Below are positions 27,227-46,880 of a DNA stretch of 64,000 nucleotides, one piece after another. Source of the stretch: Candidatus Gastranaerophilales bacterium (GTDB taxonomy: Bacteria; Cyanobacteriota; Vampirovibrionia; Gastranaerophilales; Gastranaerophilaceae); assembly GCA_947624325.1 (NCBI GenBank), contig CANQJT010000005.1, forward strand, positions 62,001 to 126,000. Reading direction: 5' to 3'. A program made the translations under genes and the position numbers. The stretch's first letter is position 1. Each line of letters opens with the position of its first letter. Below the pieces are notes generated by a model. That model was not told the DNA's origin and did no database searches. It was given only the letters and a program-made list of their open reading frames with translations.

Positions 27227-28372
27227 TTAAACCTTAAGTTTAGGTTTAATATTAGAAATTGTTGTATCCGGAATTGCAAGTTTACCCTTTTCTAAGCCTA
27301 ATAAAAACTCTATTTCATCAGAATTTAAAGCCAAATCAACACTTATATCTTCTAATAATGATTGAACTGTATGAATATTGTTATCTAAAAGCAAATCAAT
27401 TGCATATTTCAACATTGTAGGCTCTGGAATTATAATTGAATCATCATATGGTTCATGCGTCTTCCAACCCTTTTGTGACATTTTTTTCATTAAGTACTGG
27501 TATTGATTGTATGTCATTAAATTCAAATTATATGCACGAATAATCATCGCTGATATTGAAACATTCCACTTTTTCTTTAATCTGACATAATAATCTAAAC
27601 TGTACCTATATCTTTCAGGAAGGTCTTTTATAAATGCTTCCTTTGGCAATAAAAATGAAGCGGCAAATTCATTGGCTTGCTTTTCTAAAAATTTAAATTC
27701 TTCTCTTGAAATAGCTTCTATATCTTCACTTTTTGGATGTAGCAGTATATGTCCTAATTCATGAGCCGCATCAAATTGTATCCTTGAGAAAGAAGGTTTA
27801 TTTTTAGACAAAGTAACTATATATCTTTCCTCGTTGTTTATTTGTATTGATTGATTAAAGGCATCAATATCATCAGTATCTGTTTTTGTAAGTAAAACAA
27901 TTAGTCCTTGCTTTTCTAGCAAATGAATCATATTTGTAATTGGTTCAAAACCTAGCCCCCAAAACTCTCTTATTTTTGATGAAAAAGCCTCAATATCCCC
28001 ATCAAAGTCAATATTGTTAGGAATATTTAAGACTGGAAAATCCATATATTTTAATAGATACTCGCATAATTGAGCTCTAAACTGATTCTGTAATTTTTGT
28101 TGTTCCCGGTATTTTTTATTAGTTGTTAATAAAGCTCTGAAATACGGAGTTCCTGCTGGTATAGTTTTTTTATTTTGAAAGAAAAATTGTCTTGGAAAGT
28201 TTAATTCTTTAATTATTTTAAATAAATTTTCTACCTCAGGAATAATTTTATCTGTTTCATACAAAGATATTGTTTGTTTTTTTACTCCGATTTTTTGAGC
28301 AAGCTCTTCAGTCGTTAATCCTCTATAGGTTCGAGCAATTTTTAACTGTTCACCGCTAAATTTATTTTTCAT
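27227..28372 (-). CDS. XRE regulator fused to ImmA/IrrE metallopeptidase
   Basis: 381 residues. A helix-turn-helix of the XRE type spans 7-60 (LKIARTYRGLTTEELAQKIG). The zinc peptidase domain has H204-E205-x2-H208 with E235 as likely third ligand (RIQFDAAHELGHILLHP...ANEFAASFLLP). Proteins of this design cleave phage-type repressors or regulate stress and mobile elements. The stop of the upstream DUF5986-like gene lies six bases before its ATG, so they form one operon. On an integrated element it is the natural candidate for the switch between quiet and active states. Confidence 0.85.
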   Translation of the reverse strand: MKNKFSGEQLKIARTYRGLTTEELAQKIGVKKQTISLYETDKIIPEVENLFKIIKELNFPRQFFFQNKKTIPAGTPYFRALLTTNKKYREQQKLQNQFRAQLCEYLLKYMDFPVLNIPNNIDFDGDIEAFSSKIREFWGLGFEPITNMIHLLEKQGLIVLLTKTDTDDIDAFNQSIQINNEERYIVTLSKNKPSFSRIQFDAAHELGHILLHPKSEDIEAISREEFKFLEKQANEFAASFLLPKEAFIKDLPERYRYSLDYYVRLKKKWNVSISAMIIRAYNLNLMTYNQYQYLMKKMSQKGWKTHEPYDDSIIIPEPTMLKYAIDLLLDNNIHTVQSLLEDISVDLALNSDEIEFLLGLEKGKLAIPDTTISNIKPKLKV

Positions 28373-40550: not shown

Positions 40551-40817
40551 CTATATCCCAAAATAGTCTACCCCTAAGTTGTACCTCACGAAAAACTCAA
40601 AACCCTTGCTATATCTTTCTCCTGTAATGAGTTTTGAAACGTAGCTTTCTGTCACTTTGAGCCGTTTTGCAAGCTTCTTTTGCGTAAATTCTTTTTGCCG
40701 CAAAGCCAACCTAATCGCAAGTTCACGCCTGTATAAAAACACGCTTTTTGTTTTTGCCAAATTTTCATCGGCACGTTCTTTAATATAATCAATGCTTTGT
40801 AGCTCTTTTTTCTTCAT
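40551..40817 (-). CDS. HTH repressor, divergent from the Mu-like transposase
   Basis: 88 residues from ATG 40817 (GGAGG just upstream); a frame reaching 40898 lacks a binding site. Reads IDYIKERADENLAKTKSVFL, then ELAIRLALRQKEFTQKKLAK and VTESYVSKLITGER: a Cro/CI-type helix-turn-helix. It is divergent from the transposase with inverted repeats in between, which is the arrangement of a lysogeny-type repressor controlling transposition. The recombinase follows eight bases on in the same direction. Confidence 0.75.
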   Translation of the reverse strand: MKKKELQSIDYIKERADENLAKTKSVFLYRRELAIRLALRQKEFTQKKLAKRLKVTESYVSKLITGERYSKGFEFFVRYNLGVDYFGI

Positions 40818-40931
40818 AAAAACCTCCGAAATACTCTGGGGAAACACATCTAAGCCTGCCGCAGGCTTTTGTTCGGCGCCGTAAGTGAGTAAAAACAAGT
40901 TTTCCTCGTTTACGGCTTTCTCACAATAACT
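40818..40931. other. control region of the Mu-like module, left part
   Basis: Contains a GC-rich hairpin (GCCTG-CCG-CAGGC with TTTT after it, near 40856-40873) and other GC-rich sequence. No gene from the correct repressor start onward. Confidence 0.4.
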
Positions 40932-41019: not shown

Positions 41020-43005
41020 GTGATAGATGTGAGTATGATGAATAAAGACAAATACATTACAATTCAAGAATTAGCAGACCTTAAAGGCGTGAGCGCTCGA
41101 GCGATTCGGATGTCGCGTGATAAATATGTCACCCGCGAGATAATTGTCAGAGGCGGAAAAAGTTTTGAAATTCTATTATCAAGTATTGAGTTGGATTTAC
41201 AGGACAAATATTTTGAGCAAAAGACACAAATAACGTCGGAATCGACGGCGTTAATTCCGATTTTGCCGGTCAAAAATCTTCCGACTAAGGTTAATGAAAT
41301 TGCGCTTGCGCGTTTGGATTTACTTCGCGAATGGCAAAAGTACAGAAAGCATCACCCTGAGGGTAAAACCCGTGCCGGAGTTGAGTTTATTGAAAGTTAC
41401 AATACCGGCATGTTGTACCCGCATATTTTTAAGGTGCTTGGCAAAACTTCAATCGGCTCTGTTGAGCGGTGGAAACGCAAACTCGGAAACACAACTGATT
41501 ATCATTTGTTGCTGCCAAAATATGAGTATGCGACAGAGTTCCGCACGTCTTTGACCGATTACGAAAAACAGGTGTTTTTGAAAATTCTGCTACACCCGAA
41601 CAAGTTTTGTGTCGGAAAAGCAATTTCAATAACCAAGCATATTTTGTCAAAAGATGGGCCGATAAATGTTCAGGATGTGACATTTCGCCGTTATGCTAAT
41701 TGGTTTCGTGATAACCATTATGACATTTGGACGTTGGCTCGGGATGGTGAAAAAGCCTTAAAGGACAACGTTGAACCTTACATTTTGCGTGATATTTCAA
41801 AACTTGAAGTAGGGGATGTGCTTGTGGCAGACGGGCATAAATTAGCATTTTGGGTGCAAAATCCGTTTACCGGCAAACCAACAAGAGCAACTTTAATCGG
41901 GTTTTTGGATTGGAAATCGACTGCACTTGTCGGGTACGAAATTATGCTTGAAGAAAATGCCCAAAGCATCGCATCCGCCCTGCGTAATGCCATAATCAAC
42001 TTACAAAATATCCCCAAAATCATATATCAGGATAACGGCAGGGCGTTTAAGGCGAAGTATTTTATAAATACAAATTTTAAGAAAACAGGATTTGAAGGGA
42101 TTTATGCACGGCTTGGGATAAAGACGGTTTTTGCTCGGCCGTATAATGCAAAAGCCAAAGTAATTGAGCGGTTTTTCAAAGAGTTTCAGGAGAGTTTTGA
42201 AAAGCTTTTGCCGACTTATTCAGGTTCAAACATTGAAAATAAACCCGCGCATTTTAAGCGCAATGAGAAGTTTCATAAGCAGTATTTTAAGCCGAATTAT
42301 TACCCGACGATTGATGAAGTTAAAATGCTTGTGGATAAATGGCTTAAATTTAAGAACGCTCAACCTTGCCCGAACGATATAAACCATACGATAACGCAAG
42401 TGTTTGAAAACAGGACGAAAATCAAAATTGACACCGCTCGGCTTGACGATTTAATGATGACGGCTGACATCAAAACAATTTATCAAAACGGGATTCGGTT
42501 TCTTGGGACGTTTTATTATTCAGATAAACTATATGGGCTTAAAACTCAGGTGATGATTCGATATTCACTCTTTGATTTATCCGAGATTAAAGTTTATACA
42601 GTCAAAAATCAGTTTTTATGTGTCGCAAAACGCGTAACCAAAGCTCATCCGATGGCTTATCATCTCGGTGATATCAAAGATGTTGAGGATTTGAAACAAA
42701 AAATTCAAAAACAAAAACGGCTTAAAAATAAGACGATTAAAGAATTACAGAAGTTCTTGCCGAATGTGGATTTGAAATTTATTGAACAGGATATTGAAGA
42801 AGATGTTCAAGAGGTGATTGAGGTTAAACCGGTAAAAACTAAAAAGCCAACACCGAGAGAAGTGCAGATGAACGCGCCTGTGTTTTTGAATAAGTATGAA
42901 AAGTTTGAATGGCTTATGAAAAACGGTTGTACGAATGCTGACGATCGAGCATGGCTTGCGGAATACAAGCAAAGTGAGGAATATCGAGGTCTTTATGAAA
43001 CGTAA
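41020..43005 (+). CDS. Mu-like DDE transposase
   Basis: 661 residues if GTG 41020 starts it; ATG at 41035 or 41038 is also possible and starts the conserved ITIQELADLKGVSARAIRM winged/HTH part. The integrase core shows the acidic triad: D in VADGHKLAFWV (~268), D in YQDNGRAFKAKYF (~336) and E in KVIERFFKEFQESF (~382), with a Mu-type C-terminal beta-barrel and a tail that would contact the ATPase. Its GC content is clearly higher than neighbouring genes. It inserts the element by replicative or cut-and-paste transfer. The partner ATPase overlaps it by 11 bases. Confidence 0.9.
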   Translation: MIDVSMMNKDKYITIQELADLKGVSARAIRMSRDKYVTREIIVRGGKSFEILLSSIELDLQDKYFEQKTQITSESTALIPILPVKNLPTKVNEIALARLDLLREWQKYRKHHPEGKTRAGVEFIESYNTGMLYPHIFKVLGKTSIGSVERWKRKLGNTTDYHLLLPKYEYATEFRTSLTDYEKQVFLKILLHPNKFCVGKAISITKHILSKDGPINVQDVTFRRYANWFRDNHYDIWTLARDGEKALKDNVEPYILRDISKLEVGDVLVADGHKLAFWVQNPFTGKPTRATLIGFLDWKSTALVGYEIMLEENAQSIASALRNAIINLQNIPKIIYQDNGRAFKAKYFINTNFKKTGFEGIYARLGIKTVFARPYNAKAKVIERFFKEFQESFEKLLPTYSGSNIENKPAHFKRNEKFHKQYFKPNYYPTIDEVKMLVDKWLKFKNAQPCPNDINHTITQVFENRTKIKIDTARLDDLMMTADIKTIYQNGIRFLGTFYYSDKLYGLKTQVMIRYSLFDLSEIKVYTVKNQFLCVAKRVTKAHPMAYHLGDIKDVEDLKQKIQKQKRLKNKTIKELQKFLPNVDLKFIEQDIEEDVQEVIEVKPVKTKKPTPREVQMNAPVFLNKYEKFEWLMKNGCTNADDRAWLAEYKQSEEYRGLYET

Positions 43006-43684
43006 ATTCGTGATAACGCAGAATGTAAAACGATTTGTGGATTTGATGGATACGCTTAAAAACGCACCGGCGAATCTGCCCAAGATGGCGCTTGTATATG
43101 GCGATTTTGGGCTCGGGAAGTCGCAAACGATTATGTGGTGGGTTACGAATAACGATGCGATTTATGTACGGTGTAACCACAAAATGTCTGCGCGTTGGCT
43201 TTTGACCGAGATTGTCGAGGAGCTTGATGATGTGCCGACATACCTGACGTCGCTTTTATTCAAGCAGATTGAGGATAAACTGCGCGAGCGGCCAAAGGTT
43301 TTGGTGGTGGATGAGGTGGATTTTCTTTTGAATAACTCGTCTGCGATTGAGATTGTGCGGGATTTGCACGACAAAATCGGGATCCCCGTTGTGCTTGTCG
43401 GGATGAGCCTTGCGGAAGCAAAGCTCAAACGTCATAAACATATTTATGACAGGCTTTTGGGTGTTTTAAAGTTTGAAACTTTTAATAAAGAAGATGTGGC
43501 AAAAATTGTGACAGAGATTTCTGAAGTCGAGTTTGAGCCTGATGCACTGGAGCTTGTTAGTGCGAAATTTAATCAGTTCAGGCAGATTGTGAAATTTTTA
43601 AATAAAGTCGAAAACATTGCTGAGATGAATAATTTGAAAACGATTACTCTGACGGTTATGGAGGGGATTTTGAATGAAAAATAA
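42995..43684 (+). CDS. MuB/TniB-like AAA+ ATPase of the transposition module
   Basis: 229 residues from ATG 42995 (GAGG nine bases before). Walker A GDFGLGKSQT (36-45), Walker B PKVLVVDEVDFLL (~101-113), then LVGMSLAEAKLK as sensor region, as in MuB-type target-selection ATPases that bind DNA and deliver targets to the transposase. Overlaps both neighbours, so three genes are coupled. GC-rich like the transposase. Confidence 0.85.
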   Translation: MKRKFVITQNVKRFVDLMDTLKNAPANLPKMALVYGDFGLGKSQTIMWWVTNNDAIYVRCNHKMSARWLLTEIVEELDDVPTYLTSLLFKQIEDKLRERPKVLVVDEVDFLLNNSSAIEIVRDLHDKIGIPVVLVGMSLAEAKLKRHKHIYDRLLGVLKFETFNKEDVAKIVTEISEVEFEPDALELVSAKFNQFRQIVKFLNKVENIAEMNNLKTITLTVMEGILNEK

Positions 43685-44306
43685 AATTTTGAAACTCGCG
43701 AAAAGGCTCGAAACATTTAGGCTTGAAGATATTGAATCTATTATGGGTGAAGGGCTAGAAGATATTTTACAGGAATTAGTTGCGGACGGACATTTGAATT
43801 TGGTTGGCGAAATATATTCATATAAAGCCGAGCGAAATTTACCCCTGCCCTTTTGTTTCAAATTCCATCAGCAGGAAAAAATTGAGATGATAACGAAATG
43901 CTTTTGTGCCGGGGTGAAGTCAAAACAGGCGAGTTTTCTTTTGGATATCGGGGATGCGACGATACAGAATTTTTATAAACATTTTAGGCAGATGATTTAT
44001 GAACGGCAATTGAACGCCCTTAAAACGCACTTTGAACAAAAGCCGAAAATTGCAAAGATGCGGAGGTTTTACGACATACCGGTTTATTTTTATCTGTATG
44101 ATGACGAGCTTTTTGTCGCCGATAAACCATTAAAAACAAAACGAAAGAAACTTCCGCATATAAAAGAAGAATCTTTGCGGATAAAAGTCCTTTACTCCCG
44201 CCTCCGCCGCTCAATAAACCACTCCCAAATGAAACAAAACCTCGCACAGCATGTAGCGGAGCATATGTTCAAATATGATAAATCTTATAATGACATTTGT
44301 TTATAA
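43674..44306 (+). CDS. third gene of the Mu-like module, unknown role
   Basis: 210 residues, basic, helical. Segments KILKLAKRLETFRLEDIESI and VKSKQASFLLDIGDATIQNF could each be a helix-turn-helix; there is no zinc motif or TniQ signature. The gene overlaps the ATPase gene by 11 bases. A decayed copy of its last ~150 bases at 24099-24262 shows the module has been elsewhere nearby. A target-choice or regulatory factor is possible but unproven. Confidence 0.7.
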   Translation: MKNKILKLAKRLETFRLEDIESIMGEGLEDILQELVADGHLNLVGEIYSYKAERNLPLPFCFKFHQQEKIEMITKCFCAGVKSKQASFLLDIGDATIQNFYKHFRQMIYERQLNALKTHFEQKPKIAKMRRFYDIPVYFYLYDDELFVADKPLKTKRKKLPHIKEESLRIKVLYSRLRRSINHSQMKQNLAQHVAEHMFKYDKSYNDICL

Positions 44307-44344
44307 CTAATATCTAGTATGAATTTAGAGATGTAAGACTGATT

Positions 44345-44414
44345 TTATTTAACAAGTCGTATAAAATACAACTTATATATAAAATATTATTTAACAAGTC
44401 GCATAAATTGTAAC
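44345..44414. repeat. pair of 28-bp direct repeats after the Mu-like module
   Basis: TTATTTAACAAGTCG followed by ATAAA and AAC is found at 44345-44372 and again at 44387-44414, matching at 24 of 28 positions with a 42-base period. Such repeats at a transposon end are usually transposase-binding sites, so this may be the right end of the Mu-like element. A weak inverted match (AATTTATCGAACT, about 39288-39300) is the only left-end candidate I could see. Confidence 0.5.
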
Positions 44415-44440
44415 ATTATATTAAAAAATATTCTAAAGAA

Positions 44441-44469
44441 TTGAAAAATTTTTCACATAGTGTTATAAC
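44441..44469 (+). promoter_or_regulatory. promoter of the T4-beta-like gene
   Basis: TTGAAA (44441-44446), a 17-base spacer, TATAAC (44464-44469): close to consensus. The -10 box lies inside the palindrome at 44458-44487. Confidence 0.65.
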
Positions 44470-44487
44470 ATGCATATTATAACACTA
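44458..44487. promoter_or_regulatory. 30-bp near-perfect palindrome (operator) over the -10 box
   Basis: TAGTGTTATAA (44458-44468) and its exact reverse complement TTATAACACTA (44477-44487) flank an 8-base centre, CATGCATA, whose inner six bases are also palindromic. Only one pair of the 30 bases mismatches. It covers the -10 box and start of transcription of the beta-like gene, the classical place for a dimeric repressor. The ribosome binding site AAAGGA follows at 44491. Confidence 0.75.
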
Positions 44488-44503
44488 CAGAAAGGATGAA
44501 AAT

Positions 44504-45580
44504 ATGATTAATCATAGCACATATATTCCAATCCTTAAATGGAAACAAGGAGAATACCAAGCATTATCTGAGTTAACACCTGAAATTAAAAAGAATATCG
44601 TACCTCTTTTTGAAATCCCACCAATAGGATTTGATTTTGAAAATCGTAAACAGTCAAAAACCATAGACGAGCACATTCAACATTTAGGAAGCAGACTTAA
44701 GAAAAAATGGGGAAGCGCACAGTGTCTGATTGATGTTACACCTCTTATTCTTCAAGATTCAGAACACATTGCATATATACCAAAAATATTTGAATTATAC
44801 CGGTCGGAAAGTTGTGAAGTTACACCTGTCATAACGCTTGATGCAAAAGAAGAGACAATTGAAGCTATCAAACAAATAGCTCATTTAGATAAAAGGGGGA
44901 TTTGCTTGCGTCTAAAATCTTCTTTCATAGCAGACGGAATTAACGAGAATATAGCATCATTTCTTTCAAAAATTGAGTTACATAAATCCAATGTTGATCT
45001 TCTTGTAGATTTTGAAGATTTGCCCTTTAGTGGTCAATTTGAACAATTTTTTGATTTTCTCATTTCGAATTTAAAAACTTTAAAAGAAATCAATCTATGG
45101 CGTTCCTTTGCTATTTGTGGAGGTTCATTCCCAAAAAATGCAGATCAAAATAATGCAAAGCGCTTAGAGTGGCTACTGTATAAAAAATGTTATAATTCTT
45201 TCGTTGACAGCTATAGGTTACCAGCATTCGGTGATTACAATATAAATTCAAAAGAGTTCGTTGAATTAGACATGCGTTTGGTAAAACCTTATGCCAAATT
45301 AAGATATACTTTAAATGAAAATTGGTATATTGACAGAGGAACAGCCGTAAGAGGTCGAGATTCAAGGGGGTTTGGTCAATTTAGAGGTATGTGTCAAAAA
45401 TTAATTGAAACTCCATATTACAGAGGCAAAGAATTTTCAAATGGTGACAAATATATATACGATTGCGCAAACGGTACTGAAAATACAGGAAATTTATCAA
45501 CGTGGGTAAAAGTTTCTGTTAATCAACATTTAACAAAAGTGGTTCATGATCTCGCCAATTTGTACGGGTTTTCAATTTAA
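44504..45580 (+). CDS. T4 beta-protein-like family protein (Beta_protein)
   Basis: 358 residues. The opening YIPILKWKQGEYQALSEL and VPLFEIPPIG, a central barrel-like part (VDLLVDFEDLPF), and the end YYRGKEFSNGDKYIYDCANG then GNLSTWVKVSVNQHLTKVV match the Beta_protein family (PF14350 pattern as I recall it), first seen in phage T4 and now in many bacterial genomes. Function is not established. It has its own palindrome-controlled promoter and overlaps the sce7726 gene tail-to-tail by 62 bases. In other genomes the two families are often neighbours, which suggests a joint function. Confidence 0.75.
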   Translation: MINHSTYIPILKWKQGEYQALSELTPEIKKNIVPLFEIPPIGFDFENRKQSKTIDEHIQHLGSRLKKKWGSAQCLIDVTPLILQDSEHIAYIPKIFELYRSESCEVTPVITLDAKEETIEAIKQIAHLDKRGICLRLKSSFIADGINENIASFLSKIELHKSNVDLLVDFEDLPFSGQFEQFFDFLISNLKTLKEINLWRSFAICGGSFPKNADQNNAKRLEWLLYKKCYNSFVDSYRLPAFGDYNINSKEFVELDMRLVKPYAKLRYTLNENWYIDRGTAVRGRDSRGFGQFRGMCQKLIETPYYRGKEFSNGDKYIYDCANGTENTGNLSTWVKVSVNQHLTKVVHDLANLYGFSI

Positions 45581-46124
45581 GACGCACGTTATCTTTTAAA
45601 TCCTTTAATGAGTACTCATTTACGCATAATTCATACAAAAATGACTTATTCTTGTGAATTATGTTATTTGGAAGTCCTTTTTCAATTAATAAGTCTGAAA
45701 CTTCATTTTTCCACAGAAGTTTAATCAGAGCCGCAGGATCAACATTTTTATTTTTATGTTCAGTTCTGTAAGTATATAGTTTAATATTGTTTTGTTTAGT
45801 TCTTTTTGCAACTTTTATACCCCACCAATCAGGAATTATTTTTATCGCATCATCAAAATGAGATTCTGAACAGACCAAAGTAAGTTTATCCATAACTTTG
45901 CTATAATACTCTGCTTGTAGAGGTAATCGTTCCAAAGTATCAGCTTCGCTTTTAATTTCATAGCCATGGATAATACCATTAATAACTGCCACATCAACTC
46001 TGCATAGACCTTGCAATAAGCCTAGCTCGTTTATAATAATTGTATCAGCATCTCTGTATTTTTTTTCTAATTTTTGATTCAAGACACTTCTTATATCTTG
46101 ATCTTTAAGCAAAACTCTTTTCAT
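45519..46124 (-). CDS. sce7726 family protein, possible PD-(D/E)xK nuclease
   Basis: 201 residues from ATG 46124; a longer frame to 46136 is possible. RVDVAVINGIIHGYEIKSEADTLERL has the D...(E)xK layout of a PD-(D/E)xK nuclease core (D in RVDVAV, E-I-K). The later part is helical (PAALIKLLWKNEVSDLLIEKG). It faces the beta-like gene and the two coding ends overlap by 62 bases, so one transcript could interfere with the other. Nuclease activity is inferred from motif alone. Confidence 0.7.
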   Translation of the reverse strand: MKRVLLKDQDIRSVLNQKLEKKYRDADTIIINELGLLQGLCRVDVAVINGIIHGYEIKSEADTLERLPLQAEYYSKVMDKLTLVCSESHFDDAIKIIPDWWGIKVAKRTKQNNIKLYTYRTEHKNKNVDPAALIKLLWKNEVSDLLIEKGLPNNIIHKNKSFLYELCVNEYSLKDLKDNVRLKLKTRTNWRDHEPLLLNVD

Positions 46125-46187
46125 GATTCCACACATACAATAATATTAAATATCAAGTAAAAATGCAAAGCATATTACACCTGATAA

Positions 46188-46200
46188 TGTATATTATACA
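46188..46200 (-). promoter_or_regulatory. palindromic -10 region of the sce7726 gene
   Basis: TGTATATTATACA is a 13-bp palindrome; on the minus strand it contains TATAAT (46194-46199). Transcription would start near 46187, leaving a 60-base leader before the ATG at 46124. Confidence 0.4.
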
Positions 46201-46519: not shown

Positions 46520-46582
46520 GGGGTGTAATTCAAACATAAAGCCGAATTTCGGCAGAAAAATATTTTTTCAAATGTCCCATTA

Positions 46583-46660
46583 AAACCCAGTTGCCCTGTC
46601 GCTCACATTGCCCTCGCTTACCAGACTTCGTCCGTCCGCAATTTCGCTTTGTATCTCACC
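46583..46660 (-). repeat. dispersed repeat related to the RNA-like region at 19.2 kb
   Basis: Read on the minus strand, GCGAAATTGCGGACGG, GAAGTCTGGTAAGCGAGGG lines up with GCGGAATTTCGGACGG and CAAGTCCGGTAAGTGAGGG at about 19258-19297, in the same order and spacing. It ends beside the tRNA-Asn gene. Confidence 0.55.
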
Positions 46661-46695
46661 TACGGTTCTCGTCCCACTTATAAAAATAAAAAGAT

Positions 46696-46770
<75 letters not shown>

Positions 46771-46880
46771 ATATCTGTTTTTATAATACTTGAAAATCAT
46801 TTAATTGTAAAGTATTTAATTCTAAATTAAAAATGGATACATTGTGGGACATAGAAGATTAGTGAAGTTGGTAGAGATAA

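Follow-up and report, generated by a model that had tools for sequence, protein, structure and literature searches.

The locus lies in a stretch of 64 kb of Gastranaerophilales DNA, which was analysed as a whole and is referred to here as the window. It contains two intact open reading frames, one of the beta family and one of the sce7726 family, which run towards each other and overlap at their 3′ ends. The genes and features of the locus and of its immediate surroundings are as follows.

41020–44306, + strand: Mu/TnsB-like transposase, MuB/TnsC-like ATPase and a third gene of 210 aa (phrog_310, 2e-90; phrog_296, 6e-42; phrog_9697, 5.8e-8)
44342–44425, + strand: two 42 bp direct repeats with a TTTAACAAGTCGYATAAA core, between the transposition operon and beta, kept in all sister loci
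44452–44480, + strand: candidate sigma-70-like promoter for beta, TTCACA-17-TATTAT, the best consensus match, running into the palindrome
44458–44487, no strand: near-perfect 30 bp palindrome TAGTGTTATAACATG/CATATTATAACACTA, 14 of 15 pairs, with two TGTTATAACA dyads 14 bp apart
44504–45580, + strand: Beta_protein gene (P4 beta / PD-lambda-2 C family), 358 aa, assigned by PF14350 and PADLOC, predicted TIM barrel
45519–45580, both strands: antiparallel coding overlap of the beta and sce7726 tails
45519–46136, − strand: sce7726-family gene (P4 cII family), 205 aa, assigned by NF033832 and PADLOC, predicted PD-(D/E)xK nuclease
46568–46589, − strand: right end of the mobile element, TGGGTTTTAATGGGACATTTGA as read on the − strand, identical in four independent insertions

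The overlap comprises exactly 62 nt common to both reading frames, the length that had been given in the first-pass annotation of this DNA. An alternative ATG at 46124 agrees better with the relatives of sce7726 than the start at 46136. Three sister loci with 95% DNA identity were found in Candidatus Gastranaerophilales MAGs, and few changes separate the four sister copies in a dN/dS comparison. No intrinsic terminator was found between beta and sce7726 at the window locus, and two tRNAs were the sole matches of an Rfam search near the pair.

Both proteins were assigned to families by profile searches. Beta matches PF14350 (Beta_protein, 1.9e-82) and, in PADLOC, PD-Lambda-2_C (4.6e-53) and the P4 model 'beta' (5.5e-12). 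The sce7726 protein matches NF033832 (7.8e-51) and the PADLOC model 'cll' (1.6e-30). The latter denotes P4 cII, since the same models match the P4 beta and cII proteins themselves (8.2e-188 and 3.2e-113, respectively); P4 cII is in turn a member of NF033832 (2.5e-44). The pair had been described as two families of unknown function that might form an uncharacterized system, and this description has to be withdrawn: both are the families of P4 beta and cII, and the published gop-beta-cII (PMC9122126) and PD-lambda-2 (PMC9519451) systems are both represented in PADLOC. The gop-beta-cII system of P4 is an anti-phage system that protects against lambda and P1, in which beta is antitoxin-like and neutralizes gop rather than cII (Rousset et al., 2022; PMC9122126). 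Defence by PD-lambda-2 requires component C, a beta protein (Vassallo et al., 2022; PMC9519451). The families and the defence role of their relatives are thus already known.

The near-perfect palindrome was confirmed to lie over the best promoter match of beta. It is perfect in the three sister loci, and the site occurs once in the genome. One zero-spacer palindrome of such quality exists in the 64 kb window; none arose in 10 shuffles of the whole window, and one arose in 0.07% of shuffles confined to the intergenic stretch. A comparable palindrome is present for beta only, with none for sce7726. The promoter, which had been called strong, stands as the best match at its position; its strength is less secure, the match being 10/12 to the consensus and of a kind that is not enriched in the region (17 versus 12.5 ± 4). 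Judged by sequence, the palindrome is a probable operator of the beta promoter. It was rejected as a general feature of beta loci, 4 of 55 of which reached p ≤ 0.05, about the level of chance; as it is not enriched upstream of other beta genes, the control element belongs to the lineage of the window. The direct repeats at 44342–44425 may be an array of protein-binding sites or an old end of a transposon.

Homology with the three sister loci ends at the same base, 46589, and this stop is shared by all insertions, which makes the pair right-end cargo of a mobile element; the earlier placement of the pair at the edge of an island is thereby sharpened to a single right end common to four insertions. 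The island is a defence island on a Mu/Tn7-like element with swappable cargo (16900–46589) and is bracketed by empty-site relatives at about 16.9 kb and 46.68 kb. The left end was not found by terminal inverted repeat, target duplication or sister comparison, and the right end at 46589 has no matching terminal inverted repeat. The element also encodes an HTH protein (40551–40898). Defence genes surround the pair, as had been noted, and comprise RmrA/RmrT, an McrBC-like pair, two type II/IIG methyltransferase/restriction–modification genes and a Septu-like pair. Other sce7726–beta pairs likewise have defence neighbours (type I restriction, DISARM, PD-T7-3 and DitA genes) in a scan run without a matched background.

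In the window a tRNA-Asn(GTT) gene stands about 109 bp away from the right end (46589–46771), and in an insertion from a different genus (L019, 8903–9079) the distance is about 102 bp, the two ends falling at different bases; this proximity hints at homing near tRNA genes, and a third insertion (G013) has no tRNA beside it. In a related Mu-like element (G162; L021, 6429–13152) a tandem array of sce7726, sce7725 and a RES-domain gene lies between the HTH gene and the short integrase of that element, so that this partnership of proteins recurs there in a different orientation.

The mobile context admits another reading, in which the pair is a toxin–antitoxin-like maintenance or element-biology module of a transposon or prophage, one that would stabilize its carrier or take part in the DNA transactions of that carrier and would not have been selected for phage defence. 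Its position right at the terminus of a Mu-like element, the frequent occurrence of the pair on prophages and plasmids and the presence of sce7726–sce7725–RES at another position of a related Mu-like element all speak for this reading. It is nevertheless considered unlikely: the relatives are proven defence components, the surroundings are rich in defence genes and the same pair rides unrelated carriers. The last point means that the pair is not tied to Mu-like transposition, and an integral part in that process is unsupported, given the relatives on prophages and plasmids.

Conservation of the arrangement was surveyed with seeds of sce7726 proteins similar to the window copy. A GTDB set of 80 loci was drawn by a closer sce7726 profile and covered Proteobacteria, Bacillota, Acidobacteria, Nitrospirae, Elusimicrobia, Patescibacteria, Verrucomicrobia and others; an IMG/VR set of 80 contigs was drawn by a profile of beta-associated sce7726. 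Beta was nearby in 77 of the 80 GTDB loci, two of the remaining three lying at contig ends, and all 77 pairs were convergent, 74 of them overlapping. Among the 82 viral contigs examined, which came from this set and one further viral search, beta was nearby in 78; every one of these pairs was convergent and 77 overlapped. The combined sets thus hold 155 sce7726–beta pairs, of which 155 are convergent and 151 overlap. For comparison, 100 kb of E. coli K-12 contained 16 convergent neighbour pairs, one of which overlapped by at least 20 nt. A family-wide search of 191 genomes found beta in five and sce7726 in eight, and all five beta genomes have an adjacent convergent sce7726; the probability of this co-occurrence would be 2.8e-8 under independence, with four of the five genomes carrying near-identical, recently transferred copies. 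The statement in the first-pass annotation that the two families are often neighbours is therefore borne out, and the neighbourhood search also found them together beside defence genes, at the window pair and at other pairs. The association is not absolute: beta occurs without sce7726, including with an Xre-type upstream gene, and distant sce7726 proteins occur without beta in Mx4, in Staphylococcus phages and on Pseudomonas plasmids, others standing in tandem with sce7725. In two actinophage records (L034 and L035) the sce7726 gene is unannotated, probably because a long overlap antisense to beta was avoided in annotation.

Four architectures were distinguished. In the first the two genes stand alone, as in the window. 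In the second an Xre-peptidase gene, which is PD-Lambda-2_B, precedes beta, often with a DUF6932 gene in first place, and the operon faces sce7726; it was found in Rhizobium, Agrobacterium, Sinorhizobium, Sphingomonadales, Patescibacteria and Nitrospirae. The third is gop-beta facing cII in P4. The fourth was found in a member of the family of the window (G155; L020, 9667–12723), in which a P4-like beta faces sce7726 and has a membrane-like protein and one of the ImmA/IrrE type encoded ahead of it; the membrane-like protein could be a gop analogue. A gene of at least 380 aa abuts the start of beta in 17 of 80 clusters. In three rhizobial PD-lambda-2-like operons (L025, L029 and L031) the first gene is a DUF6932 gene and sce7726 is present in convergent orientation, the latter lying outside the published three-gene system.

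The overlap is held in one register. Its phase is 2 modulo 3 in 144 of 155 pairs, matching the window. In 129 of 140 measurable loci exactly 30 nt separate the conserved Trp codon of the sce7726 WR motif from the second His codon in the HH motif of beta; this spacing is also seen in 54 of 61 clusters formed at 70% identity and in the window pair itself. This register is constant across phyla at 20–50% protein identity, whereas the positions of the stop codons vary. Its persistence across many bacterial phyla marks an old unit whose parts are locked together. Even when the tails encoded by the overlap are left out, the beta and sce7726 distances correlate strongly (Mantel r = 0.61; 0 of 2000 permutations), which fits a unit that has been inherited and transferred together.

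Double coding has left a measurable trace. The Arg codon that follows the conserved Trp of sce7726 ends in A in 53 of 54 representatives, the background elsewhere in these genes being 43% (3e-22), and GC-rich genomes use CGA there in 12 of 12 cases, compared with 39 of 270 (14%) elsewhere. The base under constraint is the middle T in a beta codon for a hydrophobic residue, so that beta fixes a silent site in sce7726. The residues encoded on one strand thus constrain a silent site of the other. A beta Ala/Ser codon that always ends in C was excluded as evidence, since this follows from choosing loci with WR.

The conserved overlap may be a functionless frozen accident, in which the genes of two interacting proteins came to overlap once and indels or rearrangements have since harmed both; the odds of this are put at slightly below even, and it is compatible with a defence role. 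The single register across loci indicates a single origin of the overlap; P4 and a few other pairs have a gap between the reading frames; and the HH tail motif is also found in sce7725, whose gene stands in tandem with sce7726, so that the motif is intrinsic to the protein. Against a mere accident, escapes are rare over great divergence (four of 155 convergent pairs without overlap), though point changes to stop codons would shorten the overlap. A functional alternative, in which the overlap is part of the mechanism, the transcripts reading into each other and a change of transcription at infection (for example loss of beta transcription) freeing expression of the nuclease, is regarded as improbable; it would make the module a defence switch formed by convergent overlapping genes and conserved across bacterial phyla.

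The structure of sce7726 was predicted with AlphaFold from 71 sequences (pLDDT 93.7). The model has an alpha-beta-beta-beta-alpha-beta core (H12–26, E33–40, E45–52, E56–62, H71–81 and E84–90), and E37, D48, E60-x-K62, D66, R70 and Q74 are invariant in the 71 homologues. The best match in a fold search was 3dnx (Z = 10.5, r.m.s.d. 3.8, 133 residues), and most of the following matches were PD-(D/E)xK enzymes, namely PaqCI, Can2, XisH, NucS-type, BsmI, Bax1 and BamHI. The protein is thus predicted to have a PD-(D/E)xK nuclease fold with the D and (D/E)xK residues at the sheet; the D...ExK layout noted at first pass has held up, both in the invariant D48, E60 and K62 and in the modelled core. The overlap-encoded C-terminal tail is poorly ordered in the monomer model (pLDDT 68 and lower), and a disordered tail would suit contact with beta. 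The profiles of sce7726 and beta gave no convincing sequence match to any chain of the solved structures. We know of no published test showing cII to be toxic or a nuclease.

Beta was modelled as a TIM barrel (AlphaFold, 64 sequences, pLDDT 94.5). The fold search returned generic TIM barrels with tied Z scores, tRNA-guanine transglycosylase among them, and no catalytic family could be assigned. Residues D77, R136, D169, D244 and Y268 are at least 90% conserved, and as these polar residues lie in predicted barrel strands or at their ends a ligand or catalytic site is plausible in the model. Beta might accordingly be the effector or sensor enzyme, with sce7726 an accessory nuclease; defence would then be mainly that of beta, and its partners (gop, PD-lambda-2 B or sce7726) would be interchangeable. 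The five residues fit this proposal, as do the presence of beta in gop-beta-cII, PD-lambda-2 and the window pair alike and its occurrence with an Xre-type upstream gene and without sce7726. The lack of an assignable catalytic motif among generic, tied fold matches and the antitoxin role of P4 beta towards gop (PMC9122126) weigh against it, and it is judged rather unlikely.

The reading that we prefer, with a probability of about one half, is that the pair represents the P4 beta-cII anti-phage module in a two-gene version, which rides as right-end cargo on a Mu-like defence-island element and consists of a nuclease effector and a controlling beta. Identity, layout and mobile context are observed, the folds are modelled and the mechanism is inferred. 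The pair is probably a module for defence against viruses with a DNA-cutting enzyme at its core. In the proposed mechanism sce7726/cII would be a PD-(D/E)xK DNase effector, and beta would bind it, hold the nuclease inactive or direct it, and sense infection. Infection would release the nuclease, and its cutting of phage or host DNA would protect in a restriction-like or abortive manner. Transcription of beta is probably kept low by a repressor dimer bound to the palindrome. The coding overlap would stop recombination from parting the two genes, and each transcript probably runs antisense into the partner gene, balancing their levels; this read-through is proposed because no intrinsic terminator was found between them. 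Several observations count against this preferred reading: P4 beta neutralizes gop and not cII, each of the two genes is also found without the other, and the enzyme-like barrel of beta, with its conserved polar residues, is more than a plain antitoxin would require. As gop and PD-lambda-2 A and B are absent, the published defence may also not carry over to the two genes alone.

P4 beta-cII, PD-lambda-2 C and the NCBI 'beta family' and 'sce7726 family' become one widespread core pair, and the predicted folds (a nuclease for cII and a TIM barrel for beta) open the mechanism of a published, unexplained defence system to point mutants. The surveyed loci suggest that definitions based on three genes, as published, overlook both the minimal pair and the fourth, convergent gene present at many PD-lambda-2-like loci. 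Double coding that has lasted so long and whose constraint can be measured is rare in nature, and the frozen antiparallel overlap provides an example. As far as the literature was searchable, with subscription papers and preprints outside its scope, no description was found of the two-gene form, of the union of the three nomenclatures or of the phylum-spanning frozen overlap.

Among known systems, the PD-(D/E)xK nucleases (3dnx, PaqCI, XisH, Can2 and NucS) share the core fold and the D...ExK site predicted for sce7726, to which sce7726 adds a C-terminal helical part and the flexible WR tail. The sce7725–sce7726 pairs (NCBIfam NF033831/NF033832) share the sce7726 partner, and sce7725 has the N-terminal and the C-terminal HH motifs of beta (by a weak profile match); the window beta itself is not a sce7725 partner by this measure (NF033831, 11.9 bits, below the cutoff of 60), and in G162 the two genes stand in tandem with the RES-domain gene, whereas those in the window are convergent. 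P4 gop-beta-cII resembles the window pair in its beta and cII/sce7726 homologues, in its tail-to-tail order (gop and beta on the + strand and cII on the − strand of the P4 record, beta and cII hence being convergent) and in being cargo of a mobile element. It differs in having the gop toxin gene in an operon with beta, in the length of cII (264 aa, compared with 205 aa for the window sce7726) and in the spacing of beta and cII, which lie apart with an annotated terminator between them, whereas the window genes overlap by 62 nt; identity to the P4 proteins is 20% for the window beta and 24% for sce7726. No gop homologue was present in any fetched locus except P4, and a hidden gop beside the window pair was rejected, as neither a homologue nor a gop-like reading frame of at least 25 aa was found. 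In PD-lambda-2, component C is the closest family of the window beta (4.6e-53), and components A (HigB-like) and B (Xre-peptidase) are absent beside the window pair. The genes upstream of the window beta are the Mu-like transposition operon, and an Xre-peptidase elsewhere in the island (27227–28372) was rejected as component B since it is RmrA (2.8e-141), accompanied by RmrT. Having neither gop nor PD-lambda-2 A and B, the window locus is a two-gene variant. The PD-lambda-2 relatives of Rhizobium, Sphingomonadales, Patescibacteria and Nitrospirae combine an Xre-peptidase upstream of beta with the same convergent sce7726, a gene that lies outside the published three-gene definition.
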